From: Planctomycetota bacterium
GTDB taxonomy: Bacteria > Planctomycetota > Phycisphaerae > FEN-1346
Length of the DNA: 7,749 nucleotides
Reading direction: 5' to 3'
Assembly (NCBI GenBank): GCA_026386995.1
Contig: JAPLMO010000227.1
Span: 1 to 7,749 of the forward strand
Below are positions 51 to 7,749 of this stretch, in pieces. Position numbers and translations under genes: made by a program. Position 1 is the first letter of the stretch. Each line of letters starts with the position of its first letter. Under the pieces are notes generated by a model, which was not told where the DNA came from, ran no database searches, and worked only from the letters and a program-made list of their open reading frames with translations.

Positions 51-1220
51 TCAGGCGATTTCGCGATAGACGTCCTCCGTCTGTGCGGCGATGGTGTCCC
101 AGTTGAACGAGAAGGCGGCCTTGGCGCGGCCGCGCTCGCCCATCCACTTGGCGTGGGCGAAGTTGTGGAAGATTTCGTTGATGCCCCAGCAGATGGAGTT
201 CGGATTGTCGTAGACCAGCAGCCCGTCGGTGCCGTGCGAGACGATGTCGCGCATGCCGCCGTTGCGGGTGGCGACCACCGGCTTCCCGGCGGCCCACGCT
301 TCCAGGACGACGATGCCGAACGGCTCATTGCGGCTGGGGATACAGACGACGTCGGCCGACTTGTAGAGGTTGATGAGGTCGCTGTCGGCGCCCATCGCCC
401 CGAGGAACCGCGTGGCGTGGGCGACGCCGAGTTCGTGGCTCCGGTGCTCCAGGGGCCAGCGCATGTCGCCGTCGCCGACGAAGACGACCTTCACGTCGCC
501 GCGGCTCTTGAGGATGCCCGGCACGGCCTCCAGGAGGATGTCGGGGCCTTTCTGGGTGCTCATGCGGCCGACGAAGAGGACCATCGGCTCCATCGGGCCG
601 ATGCCGTACGTTTTCCGGCAGACGGCCGGGTCGATGAACCCGTCGAACCGCCGGCAGTTGATACCGTTATAGATGGCCCGCAATTTCCAGTCCGGCACGC
701 GGTAGAGCCACTTGACCTCGTCGGCCAGCGCGCCGGAGACGGTGATGACGCGGTCGGCCACGTAGACGCCCTCGCCCTCGACGCTACGGATGCGCTCTGA
801 CTGGCCGTTGTGCAGCACGTTGCCGCAGCGGCCGTACTCGGTGGAGTGGACCGTCAGGACGGTCCTGTTGCCGCGGTCGTTCTTGCACTGCACGAGGCCT
901 TTGGCGCAGAGCCAGTCGTGCCCGTGGACCATGTCGAACCGGTCGCCCTGGTGGGTCTCGACCTGGCCGAGGAAGTACACGAAACTGTTGCCCATGTTGT
1001 TCATCTCGGTGACGAAGTCGGGGTGGACCTGGATCGGGCAACGGTGATAGTGGACGTCGTCGACCAGGTCGTAAGGGGATTGCCCTTCGCCGACGCGCAC
1101 GAAGACATGGACCTCGTGGCCGCGGCGCTGGAGGGCGGCCGCCAGTTCCGTCACGTGGCGCGCGCAGCCCCCCACGGCAACGGAGTGAAGGCTCTCCCAG
1201 GCAAAGAAGGCGATACGCAT
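51..1220 (-). CDS. GT4 glycosyltransferase C, probable alpha-glucan (glycogen-like) synthase
   Basis: A 389-residue GT-B-fold retaining glycosyltransferase of family GT4, expected in the cytoplasm to transfer a sugar from a nucleotide donor. The N-terminal domain has the glycine-rich loop VAVGG (residues 14-18), the HGHDW motif (99-103) and HSTEYGRCGN (125-134). The C-terminal domain has VGRMSTQKG (217-225, with R219 and K224 as the usual donor-phosphate contacts) and the E-x7-E signature in NEPFGIVVLE (E299 and E307). The length is normal for GT4 and the protein stops right after the Rossmann domain. The ATG at 1220 is preceded by AGGGGA at 5 nt. It is the last gene of the GT4-GT4-GH57-GT4 run, 93 nt after the branching-enzyme gene. 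It is a clear paralogue of the gene at 3094-4716: 46 of the first 80 residues are identical by hand count. Family and fold are secure. The glucan-synthase role is inferred from the GH57 neighbour; another GT4 hexosyl transfer is possible. Confidence 0.9.
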   Translation of the reverse strand: MRIAFFAWESLHSVAVGGCARHVTELAAALQRRGHEVHVFVRVGEGQSPYDLVDDVHYHRCPIQVHPDFVTEMNNMGNSFVYFLGQVETHQGDRFDMVHGHDWLCAKGLVQCKNDRGNRTVLTVHSTEYGRCGNVLHNGQSERIRSVEGEGVYVADRVITVSGALADEVKWLYRVPDWKLRAIYNGINCRRFDGFIDPAVCRKTYGIGPMEPMVLFVGRMSTQKGPDILLEAVPGILKSRGDVKVVFVGDGDMRWPLEHRSHELGVAHATRFLGAMGADSDLINLYKSADVVCIPSRNEPFGIVVLEAWAAGKPVVATRNGGMRDIVSHGTDGLLVYDNPNSICWGINEIFHNFAHAKWMGERGRAKAAFSFNWDTIAAQTEDVYREIA

Positions 1221-1313: not shown

Positions 1314-3020
1314 CTACGCGTTCCACCACGCGAGGTCAACCTTGGGGAACACCGTGTCGTGGATGTCGGCGTCCTCGACCTCGAACTTTTCGATCTCGCT
1401 GAGTTTGCCGAGGTACTCCGAGTCGGAGCCGAGTTTCTCGGCGATGTCGGTCAGGCACTCGAACCGCGAGACGTGCTGGGTGAACCGCTTGATGCCGTAA
1501 TCGACCGCCTGTGCCCGCGTGATGACGAACGGCCAGTCGCTGGCCTGAAGGAGCAGGAGTTCGCGGCCGGCCTTCTCCAGGAGTTCCCGCAACTGCTTGC
1601 GCTTCTGCCAAGGCAGGTTGAAGGTGAGTTTGCCGAAGATGGCCTCGCAGCGGTACTCGACCTCCCACATCCAGGCGGTTTTGTCGTTGGCCCAGACGCG
1701 GTTGTCGCCGCCCTCGCCCCACGAGCCGGCGGGCATCGAGACGAGTTTGTCGGGCGGGTGCGCCTTGAGGAACTCGGCCGAGGTCTGAAGGTCGACGTCC
1801 GGGTCGGCGTTAAGCGTCAGCATGACGTCGCGCAGGAACTGCGGCCCCTCGAACCACCAGTGGCCGAAGAGTTCCGCGTCGAAGCACGCCGCCACCACGC
1901 CGTGACGCCCCGTCCGCCGGTGGTATTCCCACAGGCGTTCCTTGACTTGGTTGCAGAAGTGCTGGGCGTGCTCGAATACCTTGCTCTTGATGTCGTCGGG
2001 GTAGTAGGGGTTCTTCTGGCCCAGGTCGACGCCGGTGCCGGTGATCTTCCAGTACCGCAGGCCCCGTTTCTCGCCCTGCTTTTTGTGGAATTCCAGATAG
2101 ACGCCGTTGGCCGGATATCCGCACACGCCCGACCAGACCTGCTTGCAGATTTCGGGGTCGCGGGCGAAGACGGCCATGCGGTGGGCGCTTGTACCGTCGC
2201 TGTTGACCCAGTGCGGCTCGTGGACGCTCCGCCAGCCGCGCTGCGGGTTGTTCGGGGCCTCGTCCCACGTGACCTTGTGCCAGGTGCCGTCGCCGTTGCT
2301 CATCCACTCGCTACGGCTCTGCTCGATGAGGTGGTTCTCGACAAAGAAGTGGTCGATCCCTTCGTCGGCCACGAGGTGCTCAATGCCCGGCCTGATGCGT
2401 GCGCCGCACCAGGGGATGGGCGGGCTCCAGTGGCCGCTGGGGCGGTACGCGCCTTCGGGCAGCCACATGCCGGTAGGCTTGAAGCTCAGAATACGCTGGC
2501 TGCTGGCCAGGCCGGCGCGAATCTGGGCCCGGACGGTCGAGTCCTCCATGAGGAGCGGCGTGTAGGCGTGCGTGGCGGTCGACGTCAGCATCTCCACGAG
2601 GCCCTGGGCCGCGCGGTTCGCGTAGGCCTTCGGGATGTCGCGATTGATCTTCTGGAACTGCTCGCCGAGTTTGGTGTACCAGTCTTCCCAGCGCGTGGCC
2701 AGCCACGCGAAGTGGGGCTCGCCCCGCTTCTTGAACTCCGCATGGTCCGAACGAGCCCGCTTGATGCGGTCCTCCAGGTACCGCTCGAACCCCTTCTTAA
2801 AGTAATCCTGCGAGAGTTGCTCCAGCAGAATGGGCGTCAGGCCGAGTGTCAGCCTTGGGTTGCCGTTGAGGAACTGACACTCGTCCAGGGTTGTCAGCAG
2901 TGGCAGATACGTTTCGGCCGCCGCCTCGTACAGCCAATCCTCACCGTGCGGCCAGATGCCGTGCCTGAGCACGTAGGGCAGGTGGCCGTGAAGCACCAGG
3001 CAGAAACTGCCAATCGCCAT
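1314..3020 (-). CDS. GH57 (DUF1957-type) 1,4-alpha-glucan branching enzyme
   Basis: A 568-residue family GH57 enzyme that cuts an alpha-1,4 chain and re-attaches it by an alpha-1,6 bond (EC 2.4.1.18). The N-terminus carries HGHLPY (residues 11-16) and WPHGEDWL, typical of the branching-enzyme branch of GH57. GMWLPEGAY (184-192) holds the expected nucleophile E189, and FDAELFGHWWFEG (380-392) holds the expected acid/base D381. These correspond to the Glu/Asp pair known from archaeal TK1436 and Thermus TTHA1902. Further family blocks are VWSGVCGYPANGVYLEFH (295-312), GSWGEGGDNRVW (432-443) and SDWPFVITRAQAVDYGIKRF (494-513). The length fits the catalytic core plus helical C-domain, without the extra C-terminal extension of some archaeal members. 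The ATG at 3020 has a strong AAGGAG site 6 nt upstream. It sits 73 nt after GT4 enzyme B and 93 nt before GT4 enzyme C. Some GH57 relatives are mainly hydrolytic, so branching rather than amylase activity is inferred. Confidence 0.93.
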   Translation of the reverse strand: MAIGSFCLVLHGHLPYVLRHGIWPHGEDWLYEAAAETYLPLLTTLDECQFLNGNPRLTLGLTPILLEQLSQDYFKKGFERYLEDRIKRARSDHAEFKKRGEPHFAWLATRWEDWYTKLGEQFQKINRDIPKAYANRAAQGLVEMLTSTATHAYTPLLMEDSTVRAQIRAGLASSQRILSFKPTGMWLPEGAYRPSGHWSPPIPWCGARIRPGIEHLVADEGIDHFFVENHLIEQSRSEWMSNGDGTWHKVTWDEAPNNPQRGWRSVHEPHWVNSDGTSAHRMAVFARDPEICKQVWSGVCGYPANGVYLEFHKKQGEKRGLRYWKITGTGVDLGQKNPYYPDDIKSKVFEHAQHFCNQVKERLWEYHRRTGRHGVVAACFDAELFGHWWFEGPQFLRDVMLTLNADPDVDLQTSAEFLKAHPPDKLVSMPAGSWGEGGDNRVWANDKTAWMWEVEYRCEAIFGKLTFNLPWQKRKQLRELLEKAGRELLLLQASDWPFVITRAQAVDYGIKRFTQHVSRFECLTDIAEKLGSDSEYLGKLSEIEKFEVEDADIHDTVFPKVDLAWWNA

Positions 3021-3093: not shown

Positions 3094-4716
3094 TCAAGCC
3101 ACCGACATCCGGTGGTGTTTGGCCTTCGCGGCGGCGCCGGAGAGCAGCCGCGGGGCGGTCAGGCTGATTGCTGGGGTTTCCGCCGCTTCCTCGATCGTTT
3201 CAGTCTGCGGCGCGGCCGCGGCCGTGGCGCTGACCGGCTTGATTACCGTCATGAGGCGCGCCGCGCCCGTCCGGGCGACGATTTCGCAGCACTGCCGCAC
3301 GGCCTCCGTCACGGCGTTCCACTCGCCCTGGATGATGGCGCTGCGGCGCTGCAGATGGACCGCAAGGCCAGATTGTGCGAGCAGACGCTTGCACTCGCTG
3401 AAGGCGTCGGCCGCCAGGCGTCCGTCGCCCGTGATGCGGAACATCAGTTTCGCCTTGGCCAGCAGCGGGCTGGCGGCCGGGACGCGGGTCACTGGCACGG
3501 GGGCGGACACCGCCATCACCATCGTCGCCTTGGGCTTGGCCTGGCGCAGCGCGCCGTCCGGGTCGTAGGCGTTCAGCGTCTGCTCGACGATCTTGCTCCA
3601 CGTGAACCGCGCCTCGACGGCGTACCGGCCATTCTGGCCCATCCAGCGGGCGCGGTCGAAGTTCGAGAATAGCGTCGTCAGGCCCCAGGTCACCGACTGG
3701 ACCTGCGGGAAGATCTTCAGCCCGTTGACGTCGTGCCACACGTATTCGTTCGGGCCGCCGTTCTGCGTGACCACGACCGGCTTGCGGGCGCTCCAGCTTT
3801 CGAGCACCACGATGCCGAACGGCTCGTTGCGGCTGGGGACGCACAGGGTATCGCACATCTTGAAGAGGTTTACGAGTTCGGGGCCGCTACGGTATCCGAG
3901 GGACCGGACGGCGTTGCCGACGCCGAGTTGGCGGACGCGGTTCTCCAACGGGCCGCGCATCCCGCCGTCGCCGGCGATCACGAACTTCGCGCTGGGTTGG
4001 GCCCGCAGAACGGCGGGCATCGCCTCGACCAGGAGGTCGGGCCCTTTCTGCCACTCCAGGCGGCCGCAGAAAAGCACTGTCGGGTCCATCGGCCCGATGC
4101 TGTACCGCCTCTTCAGGCCGCCCTGGTCCACGGGCTCGTCGAACCGCTGCGGGTCAACGCCGTTGTAGACGACCGACGTCTTTTCCCGCGGCACTTCGTA
4201 CATCCAGGCGATCTCGTCCCTGGTGGCCTGGGAGACGGTGATGATACGGTCGGCCCAGTACGTCCCGGCCCGCTCCTGGTCGCGGACGCGCTGCGACCGG
4301 CCGCCGGGGAAAGTGTTGCCGCACCGCGCATACTCAGTGGAGTGGATCGTCAGGATGGCGCGCCGCCCGCGCCCGCGTTTGATCCAGATCATCGCGTTGG
4401 CCGTCAGCCAGTCGTGGGCGTGGATGATGTCGAACGGGGCGCCCAGCGTGTCTTCGAGGATGAAAACGCGGTCGACGAACGCGCGACACATGTTGTTGAT
4501 GTCGTCCACGAACTCCGGGTGGCTCACATAGGGGCACCGGTGATAGTGCACGCCGTCAATCAGGTCGTGGTACGTCTGGCCCGGCATCATCCGCGTGACG
4601 ACGTGGACGTCATGGCCCTTGCGGGCTAGGCCGGCGGCCAGGTCCGAAACATGGGCGGCCACGCCTCCGACCGCCACCGAGTGGTACGACTCCCACGATA
4701 ACACGCAAACACGCAT
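3094..4716 (-). CDS. GT4 glycosyltransferase B fused to a C-terminal MTH1187/YqgV-like (DUF77) domain
   Basis: A 540-residue protein. Residues 1 to about 387 are a full GT4 GT-B enzyme: VAVGG loop (14-18), HAHDW (99-103), HSTEYARCGN (125-134), CGRLEWQKG (217-225, R219 and K224), and E-x7-E in NEPFGIVVLE (E298 and E306). They align end to end with the GT4 protein at 51-1220. A linker rich in Ala, Pro and Val (388-418) leads to a second domain at about 419-496. It has a strand LMFRITGDGRL, a helix with CKRLLAQSGL, then IIQGEWNAVTEAVRQCCEIV and GAARLMTVIKP. This order and wording resemble the MTH1187/YqgV/yeast Ecm15 family (PF01910), a ferredoxin-like fold reported to bind thiamine-type ligands in some members. 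An Ala/Thr/Pro-rich tail follows. An upstream in-frame start at 4899 exists, but its first 61 residues would translate the gap. The ATG at 4716 fits the family N-terminus and has a GGGAGAG site. It lies 116 nt after GT4 A and 73 nt before the GH57 gene. GT4 is certain, the extra domain likely, the polymer made unproven. Confidence 0.9.
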   Translation of the reverse strand: MRVCVLSWESYHSVAVGGVAAHVSDLAAGLARKGHDVHVVTRMMPGQTYHDLIDGVHYHRCPYVSHPEFVDDINNMCRAFVDRVFILEDTLGAPFDIIHAHDWLTANAMIWIKRGRGRRAILTIHSTEYARCGNTFPGGRSQRVRDQERAGTYWADRIITVSQATRDEIAWMYEVPREKTSVVYNGVDPQRFDEPVDQGGLKRRYSIGPMDPTVLFCGRLEWQKGPDLLVEAMPAVLRAQPSAKFVIAGDGGMRGPLENRVRQLGVGNAVRSLGYRSGPELVNLFKMCDTLCVPSRNEPFGIVVLESWSARKPVVVTQNGGPNEYVWHDVNGLKIFPQVQSVTWGLTTLFSNFDRARWMGQNGRYAVEARFTWSKIVEQTLNAYDPDGALRQAKPKATMVMAVSAPVPVTRVPAASPLLAKAKLMFRITGDGRLAADAFSECKRLLAQSGLAVHLQRRSAIIQGEWNAVTEAVRQCCEIVARTGAARLMTVIKPVSATAAAAPQTETIEEAAETPAISLTAPRLLSGAAAKAKHHRMSVA

Positions 4717-4832: not shown

Positions 4833-6128
4833 TCAGTTCTTCAAGGTCGTCATCTGCTCCTCGTAAACGGCGACGCACTTGCGGGCCGCTTCGTCCCACG
4901 TGAGGCGCCGGACCTCGGCCACCCCCTGGCGCAGCACCGCTTCCGAGAGTTCCGGATGGTTCAAGAGAGACAAAATCAGGTCCGCCATCCGGTCGACGTC
5001 CCAGAAATCGACCAGCAGCGCCCCGCGCGGCAACACCTCCGCGGCGCCCGAGGTCTTCGAGATCACTACCGGCACGCCGTGCTGGATCGCCTCCAGGGCC
5101 GTCAGGCCGAACGGTTCGCTTACCGAGGGCATCACGTAGACGTCGGCCGCGCGGTACGCACGCCTTACCTCTTCACCTCGCAGGAACCCCGTAAACCGCA
5201 CGCTGGCGCCCAGGCCCATGGCGGCGACCTGCTCGACGGTACGCGGCCCGAGGTCGCCCCACCCGGCCATGACGAAGCGGACGTCGCCGCGCTTTGCGAG
5301 CACCCGCGCCGCCGCCCGCACGAAGAACTCCGGGCCCTTCTGCATGGTGATCCTGCCCAGAAAGAGCACGGTCTTCTTGCCATTGCCTGAGGACGCCGGC
5401 GGGGCGGGCCTGACCGGCTCGATCCCGTTGTGGACCACGCGCACTTTCTCGGGTGCGATGCCGTATCGCTCGACGATCGTCTGTTTCGTCCGCTGGGACA
5501 CGGCGATTATCGCCTGCGCCCCCTGCATGCCGAGCCGCTCGATCTCGTACACCGGCCGGTTGACGTTCTCGCCCGAGCGGTCGAACTCGGTCGAGTGCAC
5601 GTGCACCACCAGGGGCTTGCCGGTGCGGGCTGCGATCGCCAGACCGGCCGGAAAGGTCACCCAGTCATGCGCGTGGATGACGTCGAACGTCTCGTCCTTG
5701 ACGATCTCGGCGCACCGCGCCGTATACTCCTCGATGCGGCCGACGAGGTCGCCCTCGTAGCCGCCGGCCGCCCCCGTGCCGACGACGCGCAGGGCCGGCG
5801 ACACCACCGCCACGCAGCGCAGCGGCTCGGCCAGCCGCCCCTCGGAAAGGGCGGGGGGCTGCGGCATCGCGCGGCCGTACGGGCTGGTTACGGTGGACGG
5901 GACGGCCCGAAACTCAAGACTTCCCCCGTCATGCGCCGGGACCGTGCTTTCCGCGGAGAACTGTGCGGGTAGAGCCAGCACGCCTTTTTCCATTGCGATC
6001 GCCCTGGGAAGCACGAAGAGAATCTCCATATCACGGCGCATCATAGCCCGGGTCAGGCCGTGACAGGCCGTTCCGAGGCCGCCGCTTATGAACGGAGGAA
6101 ATTCCCAGCCGAGCATCAACACGCGCAC
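4833..6128 (-). CDS. GT4 glycosyltransferase A, glycogen-synthase-like
   Basis: A 431-residue GT-B glycosyltransferase. The N-terminus MRVLMLGWEFPPFISGGLGT has the GGLG loop (16-19) shared by glycogen-synthase-like GT4/GT5 enzymes. It also has HAHDW (152-156), HSTEFDRSGENVNRPVYEIE (178-197), LGRITMQKG (257-265, R259 and K264 at the donor-phosphate site) and the E-x7-E motif SEPFGLTALE (E338 and E346). Residues about 52-125 form a variable insert absent from the two other GT4 proteins here. The start is GTG at 6128. It is chosen because it gives the family-typical MRVLMLGWE, although the upstream GGTGG site is weak and an ATG follows four codons later. It lies 207 nt after the DUF2934 gene and 116 nt before GT4 enzyme B. 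It is the most glycogen-synthase-like of the three GT4 proteins, so it is the best candidate for the main chain-extending enzyme. Donor (ADP- or UDP-glucose) and acceptor cannot be read from sequence. Confidence 0.9.
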   Translation of the reverse strand: MRVLMLGWEFPPFISGGLGTACHGLTRAMMRRDMEILFVLPRAIAMEKGVLALPAQFSAESTVPAHDGGSLEFRAVPSTVTSPYGRAMPQPPALSEGRLAEPLRCVAVVSPALRVVGTGAAGGYEGDLVGRIEEYTARCAEIVKDETFDVIHAHDWVTFPAGLAIAARTGKPLVVHVHSTEFDRSGENVNRPVYEIERLGMQGAQAIIAVSQRTKQTIVERYGIAPEKVRVVHNGIEPVRPAPPASSGNGKKTVLFLGRITMQKGPEFFVRAAARVLAKRGDVRFVMAGWGDLGPRTVEQVAAMGLGASVRFTGFLRGEEVRRAYRAADVYVMPSVSEPFGLTALEAIQHGVPVVISKTSGAAEVLPRGALLVDFWDVDRMADLILSLLNHPELSEAVLRQGVAEVRRLTWDEAARKCVAVYEEQMTTLKN

Positions 6129-6323: not shown

Positions 6324-6348
6324 GAATCGGCCGGACTATCGCCGATTC
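6324..6348 (-). terminator. 8-bp hairpin spanning the stop codon of the DUF2934 gene
   Basis: GAATCGGC (6324-6331) pairs exactly with GCCGATTC (6341-6348). The 9-nt loop holds the TAG stop codon of the DUF2934 gene. On the minus strand it is followed by GATACCTTGAAAACAGG, which is not a proper U-tract. Position fits a terminator or a 3'-end stabiliser, but termination is only a possibility. Confidence 0.35.
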
Positions 6349-6704
6349 ATTTCTTCGCGAAGTTGGCGCTCGGCTTCGAGCCAATTCTCCCGGTCGCGGC
6401 CGGGCTGGCACCCGCTCTTCGTCCAGATTGCGCGGGCACGCTCGGAGACCTGGTCGTGCGCCGGCGCAGCGTGACGGCCGGCGACGGTGGCGGTGGCGGT
6501 CTTCGTGGCCGGCGCCGCGGCGGGTTGGCTGAAGGCCGGGGCAGCGGCGGGCTTTATCGGAATCGAAGTCTTTGCGGGTGACGGCGGGGATGCGGGGCCG
6601 GCGCCCAGCGGACCCTTGCCGGCGGGCGATTCGGCCGCACGCGTCTTCTCGGACGTCTGCCGGGGGCGGCCGTTTGATGGTTTCTCGGAGTAGTTCCTGC
6701 TCAT
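6336..6704 (-). CDS. Small DUF2934 domain protein with a Pro/Ala-rich N-terminal tail
   Basis: A 122-residue, highly charged soluble protein with no signal peptide or membrane segment. Residues 1 to about 84 are low complexity: polar and basic at first, then Ala/Pro-rich with the unit PAAAPA twice (52-57 and 61-66). Residues about 85-117 match the short DUF2934 module: VSERARAIWTKSG, then PGRDRENWLEAERQLREE, with W94, G102, W108, E110 and E112 as the recognisable positions. DUF2934 has no established function that I know of. It is usually a lone short helix-rich module in environmental bacteria. The ATG at 6704 has a clear AGGA ribosome binding site 8 nt upstream. The gene follows a 532-nt non-coding region with a strong promoter and precedes the glucan cluster by 207 nt. 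It could share that transcript, but a hairpin at its stop codon may separate them. The domain call is good; the role is unknown. Confidence 0.8.
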   Translation of the reverse strand: MSRNYSEKPSNGRPRQTSEKTRAAESPAGKGPLGAGPASPPSPAKTSIPIKPAAAPAFSQPAAAPATKTATATVAGRHAAPAHDQVSERARAIWTKSGCQPGRDRENWLEAERQLREEMNRR

Positions 6705-7236: not shown

Positions 7237-7749
7237 TTACGCGATGACGTACCCCGGCGCCAGGGCCTCGCCGCTCGCGCGGTACCACTGCTGAAGGCGC
7301 TTGCGGCAATCGAGCAGCGTGTCGCGATACGCCGGGTCCGAGGCCAGGTTCTTCATTTCGCCGGGGTCTTTCTCCAGGTCGACGAGCATTTCGCGGTGCT
7401 CTCCCGTGTCGAAGACCGTGTACTTGAATCGGGCCGTGTGCAGCGCCCGGCAGTGGTGGCCCTCGACCACGAGCGAGTCTCTCCAGGACGCAGCCGTGCC
7501 GCCCTCGGCCAGGGGGCGGACGCTGCGGCCGGCCAGTTCCTTCTGGGGGGCGATTCCCGCGAAGTCGCACAGCGTCGGGATCAGGTCCAGCCCCGTCGAG
7601 ACCAGGTGCTCGCGGTCCACAAGCCCTGGCCGCGTCACGCCCTTGAGGCTGACGATGAAGGGCACCCGCTCGGACTCCTCGTAAAGCACGGACTTGTGCT
7701 CCAGGCGATGCGACCCGTCCATGTCGCCGTGGTCGCTGGAGAAGACGAC
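7237..7749 (-). CDS. Sulfatase (S1 formylglycine-dependent type), C-terminal part, cut by the window edge
   Basis: The final 170 codons of a sulfatase of the alkaline-phosphatase superfamily; the reading frame stays open to the window edge. The visible part begins VVFSSDHGDMDGSHRL, the conserved block whose Asp and His ligate the active-site calcium. It continues with HKSVLYEESERVPFIV (conserved Lys), then STGLDLIPTLCDFAGI and RSVRPL. The C-terminal subdomain has SLVVEGHHCRALHTARFKY and LVDLEKDPGEMKNLASDP, the usual ending that describes the substrate-pocket strand and the 'DP.E..NLA' motif. The protein ends APGYVIA with a TAA stop at 7237-7239. The catalytic Cys/Ser, any signal peptide and the start codon lie outside the window, so substrate class and location cannot be judged; many relatives are exported and remove sulfate from polysaccharides. 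It is separated from the next gene by 532 nt with its own promoter, so it is probably a separate transcription unit. Confidence 0.92.
   Translation of the reverse strand, partial: VVFSSDHGDMDGSHRLEHKSVLYEESERVPFIVSLKGVTRPGLVDREHLVSTGLDLIPTLCDFAGIAPQKELAGRSVRPLAEGGTAASWRDSLVVEGHHCRALHTARFKYTVFDTGEHREMLVDLEKDPGEMKNLASDPAYRDTLLDCRKRLQQWYRASGEALAPGYVIA

Follow-up and report, generated by a model that had tools for sequence, protein, structure and literature searches.

Why should a glycosyltransferase carry at its C-terminus a domain related to a family of stand-alone proteins? The question is raised by one gene in a 7,749-nucleotide stretch of DNA from a Planctomycetota bacterium (hereafter the window). 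GT4 enzyme B (GT4-B) is encoded on the minus strand at 3094..4716, stop codon included, and comprises 540 amino acids when read from an ATG that agrees with the starts of its homologues (alignment A1); the open frame extends to 601 amino acids if an alternative GTG start upstream at 4899 is used. Its catalytic part (residues 1-385; 3562..4716) matches Pfam GT4 domains above cut-off and contains EPFGIVVLE, whose glutamates E298 and E306 are shared by all 10 aligned sequences. We take this E-x7-E to be the GT4 catalytic motif, and GT4-B thus belongs to GT4 both by its Pfam domains and by this motif. Behind the catalytic part, on the same strand, lie an Ala/Pro-containing linker (residues 386-418; 3463..3561; pLDDT below 50 for 388-416), the MTH1187-like domain (residues 419-495; 3232..3462), which is supported by PF01910, the predicted fold, Foldseek, and alignment, and a C-terminal tail of low model confidence (residues 496-540; 3097..3231; pLDDT below 50 for 498-540).

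The genes around GT4-B all lie on the minus strand. In transcription order, they are the end of a sulfatase-like gene (7237..7749), a gene for a small DUF2934 protein (6336..6704; PF11154 at 45.1 bits, cut-off 22), GT4 enzyme A (4833..6128; Pfam scan and locus comparison), GT4-B, a GH57 branching-enzyme-like protein (1314..3020; PF03065 and PF09210 above cut-off), and GT4 enzyme C (51..1220), a paralogue without the extra domain by Pfam scan and GT4 tree. Judging by these families, the cluster appears to build an alpha-glucan; in it, the GT4 enzymes would extend chains and the GH57 protein would branch them. We infer a glucan as the product of GT4-B from its neighbours and from weak family matches: GT4-B misses the cut-off of TIGR02149, the GlgA/GlgM-like glycogen synthase model (137.7 bits versus 302.4), and the GH57 protein lies below the NCBIfam branching-enzyme cut-offs. 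According to an excerpt of PMC11046441, GT4 genes adjoining GH57 genes occur in some archaea, and a glycogen-synthase role for them is termed speculative there. The window shares GT4 domains and GT4-GH57 gene adjacency with GlgA/GlgM-like enzymes, but differs from them in its set of three GT4 genes with a DUF2934 gene, in the domain at the C-terminus of GT4-B, and in a score below the TIGR02149 cut-off.

Is the C-terminal domain a genuine relative of MTH1187? The initial annotation had placed a PF01910 domain fused to a GT4 enzyme at 3229-3459, pointing to the phrases AQSGL, IIQGEWNAV, and GAARLMTVIKP, all of which are found in GT4-B. The fusion is borne out within one 540-amino-acid protein: against a curated cut-off of 24.9 bits, PF01910 (Thiamine_BP) scores 33.0 bits (E 6e-8) in the 601-amino-acid frame, and the search of the C-terminal region that the annotation had proposed gives a significant 36.1 bits (E 6.3e-9) for the last 140 amino acids alone. 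With a profile of 11 stand-alone relatives, the tail scores 41.6 bits while the highest of 5000 residue shuffles reaches 10.4, so the match is not due to chance. The cut-off of TIGR00106 is missed by the C-terminal 140 amino acids (19.4 bits versus 54.7). The domain extends over residues 422-493 by alignment (window 3238-3453) and over 419-495 by predicted structure (window 3232-3462), and the annotated position was therefore nearly exact. Its remark that the paralogue at 51-1220 lacks the domain also holds, as a Pfam scan finds no PF01910 match in GT4-C.

The predicted fold agrees with this assignment. AlphaFold predicts the domain confidently as βαββαβ, and ranks 1-13 among the Foldseek matches listed are all chains of the MTH1187/YkoF-like superfamily, drawn from six PDB entries, as expected from the MTH1187-like fold that had been proposed. 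Profile and model together confirm residues 419-495 as a predicted ferredoxin-like domain related to MTH1187/DUF77. A PDB search with the single sequence returned chance-level matches only, and a search with a five-sequence profile reached 1YQH at E 0.003. Stand-alone PF01910 members presumably have a helix after strand 4; neither AlphaFold model contains a confident helix at this place. In the whole-protein model, built from 10 sequences, the GT4 part is poor (mean pLDDT 55.9), and the model was left aside for domain contacts.

Is the fusion peculiar to this genome? Domain-bearing GT4 proteins number 11 from 10 genomes with the window included, or 10 from nine other genomes, and the repeated architecture that had been anticipated in related genomes is thus found. 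Among the first nine related loci, four carry the tail (L001, L002, L003, and L005); seven of the nine are labelled Planctomycetota/Planctomycetia, the others Latescibacterota and Fibrobacteres, and all four fused loci are among the seven. With the limits set, relatives of GT4-B are present in three of six, 13 of 392, and 38 of 397 related genomes. The genome searches yielded further fused copies, one each in G013, G449, G574, G727, and G748 and a second one for G002, as well as candidate tails from G627 and G659 (L068 and L070). The second copy in G002 (L098) lies on a 16.9-kb contig without a GT4-A or GH57 match. The fusion was previously not known to have been described, and no description was found among the matches listed from the open-licence literature, with domain-architecture databases outside the scope of the search; the papers found on GH57/GT4, planctomycete glycogen, and DUF2934, and an excerpt of PMC6629080, likewise gave nothing on it.

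Thirteen tails, selected by eye among the GT4 rows, were compared with a profile built from 29 stand-alone proteins. At E below 0.01 (E-values for 13 targets), 11 of them match, the exceptions being L068 and L070. Scored as whole proteins with PF01910, three of the 13 pass (window, L016, and L001), six stay below cut-off (L002, L003, L005, L017, L061, and L063), and no match is seen for L062 and L066 at E 1 or for L068 and L070 at E 0.001; the L017 place passes in the genome search, at 25.8 bits. A profile of nine fused domains was run against 397 genomes of the G001 class, at most 14 candidates being scored in each, and matched 85 of them at E up to 0.001. Its six matches above 95 bits are the query rows themselves, so no further strong fused copy came to light in this sample. 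The next match, at 66 bits, lies in a 100-amino-acid frame, and weak matches in G668 and G507 have long open frames around them. In G001, G002, G003, G013, and G449, whose completeness is unstated, no stand-alone PF01910 copy was seen and the fused place is the only one. Plasmid and viral collections yielded no relatives at the settings used.

Have the fused proteins arisen by one event, or has the domain been acquired repeatedly? In a domain tree of 40 rows and 71 columns (L068 and L070 left out), in which branches are long and the bootstrap had not settled, the 11 fused domains lie on one side of a branch with support of 100/99. Two stand-alone subfamilies were made into profiles, A from 11 sequences and B from 17. 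Subfamily A beats B in all 13 tails and does so by a clear margin in 11 (41.6 versus 24.1 bits for the window); with either profile, L068 and L070 score within the range of shuffled sequences. The position of the 11 domains behind one supported branch, together with a single best-matching subfamily, suggests one fusion followed by erosion or loss. Subfamily A itself (L032-L042, from the class of G001) has the helix-1 and helix-2 cysteines in common with the fused domain, but its members are unfused and keep the conserved positions; the best PDB match of one of them, L035, is yeast YBL001c (1LXJ, E 1.2e-18).

On a GT4 tree of 53 rows, from which eight loci were left out as duplicates, the fused label is far from random, as none of 500 shuffles was as low. 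It needs five changes, and well-supported branches force two of these; later losses of the domain are therefore likely but not proven. A single gain with later losses would fit both trees. The earlier suggestion that the domain was gained or lost after duplication is thus sustained as to one gain, which fits the domain tree, and is only likely as to losses. An apparent loss of the fusion is seen at L006:8214-8375, where a shortened, out-of-frame remnant of the domain lies directly behind the GT4-B stop (E 2.4e-6, the tool having read through one stop). The domain is also missing from the close GT4-B relatives L004, L007, L008, and L069 and is unrecognisable by profile in L068 and L070, which indicates that it is not needed by GT4-B as such.

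The gene order was compared with that of the window in 17 loci. A GH57 gene lies behind GT4-B in nine of the 17 (L002, L004, L006, L096, L097, L099, L101, L140, and L141), and the order DUF2934, GT4-A, GT4-B, GH57 is found in six (L006, L096, L097, L099, L140, and L141); a DUF2934 gene precedes GT4-A in these six and in L003. GT4-C follows GH57 in five loci (L006, L096 in part, L097, L101, and L140), and the five-gene order of the window recurs in four of the 17 (L006, L097, L140, and, with a partial GT4-C, L096). No GH57 gene was seen with GT4-B in eight stretches (L003, L005, L007, L008, L009, L098, L100, and L139), some of which are cut by a contig end; L100 ends 1.3 kb behind GT4-B. The presence of GH57 does not track that of the domain, since GH57 accompanies a GT4-B that lacks an in-frame domain in L004 and L006, while L003, L005, L098, and L100 have the domain without GH57 in the stretch. 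Around the stand-alone copies L134-L138, no shared neighbour was seen by eye in the five loci. Next to the G013 cluster, on the opposite strand, there is a weak match to a sulfatase (39.7 bits; L097:6784-8409).

Which features of the family has the fused domain retained? The 13 fused tails were compared with 29 stand-alone proteins, one of them from G004 and the other 28 from the G001 class, over 15 columns that are conserved in at least 90% of the latter set of 29. Six positions are invariant in all 29: P13, S19, G44, T45, R81, and K91. In the fused tails, Pro13 and Ser19 are each kept once, and Gly44, Thr45, Arg81, and Lys91 never; three tails have a gap at position 81 and one has a gap at position 91. 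The placement of positions 13-20, in a loop, and of 91 depends on the alignment; positions 44-45 adjoin the conserved Gly49. Intermediate counts are found for Gly17 and Val20 (four tails each), Val24 (two), Ala25 (three), and Glu48 and Arg71 (five each). The fold glycines Gly35 and Gly49 are kept in all 13 tails, and Cys61 in helix 2 is kept in 11. By alignments with L035, the proline, the serine, the Gly-Thr pair, the arginine, and the lysine are present in 1LXJ, 1LXN, and 2EKY. The relation to the MTH1187/YkoF-like superfamily (PF01910, TIGR00106; structures MTH1187 1LXN, YBL001c 1LXJ, TM0486 1VK8, MJ1052 2EKY, and DUF77 1YQH) thus comprises the predicted fold, the Pfam match, and these two glycines and cysteine; the GT4-B domain differs in being fused, in having lost most conserved positions, and in missing the TIGR00106 cut-off.

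The domain is nevertheless under constraint, although loosely. Its dN/dS is 0.58 for window-L016, 0.55 for L001-L002, 0.32 for L005-L062, and 0.18 for L068-L070, while the catalytic part gives 0.27, 0.17, 0.10, and 0.04 for the same pairs. The 95th bootstrap percentiles of the domain pN/pS are 0.95, 0.94, 0.64, and 0.42 in the same order, all below 1, with the two widest intervals nearly reaching it. The domain diverges faster than the enzyme to which it is attached (57% versus 74% identity for window-L016).

What, then, might the domain do? We tentatively favour, with a probability put somewhat below even, the idea that a stripped-down MTH1187 fold has been reused to assemble or dock GT4-B, a putative glucan-building enzyme. 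GT4-B would have gained a C-terminal copy of a stand-alone MTH1187-like protein, probably in one fusion; the copy would have kept the ferredoxin-like core and lost most conserved positions, including the Gly-Thr pair and the arginine after strand 4. Held on a flexible linker, it would most likely serve as a non-catalytic assembly module, whose edge strand and helices could join GT4-B molecules to one another or to a cluster partner, GT4-A or the GH57 enzyme. An oligomerisation module, one of two roles suggested by the initial annotation, is accordingly possible and preferred. Edge pairing does occur in this superfamily, as the two ferredoxin-like repeats of YkoF, according to an excerpt of PMC3779223, form a single sheet by pairing through strands 4 and 8. 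The faster divergence of the domain, the two pN/pS intervals that nearly reach 1, the close relatives that lack it, and the domain-bearing loci without a GH57 gene in the stretch count against an assembly role, and the oligomer contacts of the family may need a part that the fused domain has lost.

The other suggested role was that of an allosteric sensor, in which the domain would bind a small molecule, thiamine-like or other, and tune the GT4 enzyme. PF01910 is named for thiamine binding, TM0486 is reportedly a thiamin-binding protein by the title of its study, the fold is confidently predicted and constrained, and a fold joined by a linker to the C-terminus is a common layout for a sensor. 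However, each of the six positions that the stand-alone proteins keep invariant has been lost from 12 or all 13 of the fused tails, which weakens the idea and makes the usual ligand site unlikely, though not impossible. Nor do the columns held in at least eight of nine strong fused copies (L, C, L, G, G, V, A, C) provide an invariant polar pocket as a replacement, and the sensor is judged improbable. The earlier interpretation thus stands as to the fusion, its fold, its recurrence, and its absence from the paralogue, and is weakened as to sensing through the usual site. The same columns hold no aromatic residue, which argues against the domain tethering the enzyme to its product polymer in the manner of a carbohydrate-binding module. 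Such a tether would suit the position of the domain, which follows a low-confidence linker in a glycosyltransferase with a GH57 gene next to its own in nine of 17 loci, and the tryptophan of a GDW/GEW turn is kept in seven of nine rows of alignment A3; yet this tryptophan is also common in the stand-alone proteins, and no carbohydrate-binding module appears by title among the 50 Foldseek matches listed. We regard a tether as doubtful, to the same degree as the sensor.

Could the domain instead be a decaying, functionless leftover of a chance fusion? Its fast divergence, the unrecognisable tails of L068 and L070, the out-of-frame remnant in L006, and the several relatives without it would all be expected of a relict, but dN/dS lies below 1 in all four pairs, one of which is L068-L070 itself, the fold is confidently predicted, and open frames run through the domain in 11 GT4-B proteins. 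A relict is therefore considered unlikely. There is also a small chance that GT4-B is a regulated glucan synthase of a new kind, whose MTH1187-type fold was recruited a single time, has lost its former conserved site, and now senses another small molecule or the glucan and thereby controls polymer building by GT4-B and GH57. If the domain assembles or controls GT4-B, it would offer a handle on an uncharacterised polysaccharide cluster. The fusion is also a natural case in which a widespread and poorly understood fold has become part of an enzyme and lost most of its usual conserved positions, which would make a structural role of the MTH1187-like fold separable from ligand binding.

Other PF01910 matches were found outside the GT4-B loci. 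Short matches in G491, G425, G422, G417, G140, G468, and G430 were considered as unfused GT4 partners and rejected; the stretches around these seven contain no GT4, GH57, or DUF2934 match, and their sequences belong to a different short family. This family (L088-L094; a pattern like SLYPL ... SNACP) matches PF01910 positions 1 to 70-75 in seven genomes of the class, over cut-off in six, and has no visible tie to the GT4 cluster in these stretches. The PF01910 match in G540 lies in what is presumably a FliF-like protein.

Small C-terminal additions to GT4 enzymes are not confined to GT4-B. On the GT4-C side of the same tree, proteins at L077, L078, L080, L084, L086, and L087 have a C-terminal DUF2934; they share with GT4-B the catalytic layout and a small C-terminal add-on, and differ in the add-on itself and in their side of the tree. 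DUF2934 is above the Pfam cut-off in six of seven GT4 tails picked by motif, the seventh, L074, having no match at E 0.001. As DUF2934 is C-terminal in proteins of the GT4-C side and encoded by a separate gene in the window, it seems to be tied to these GT4 enzymes.
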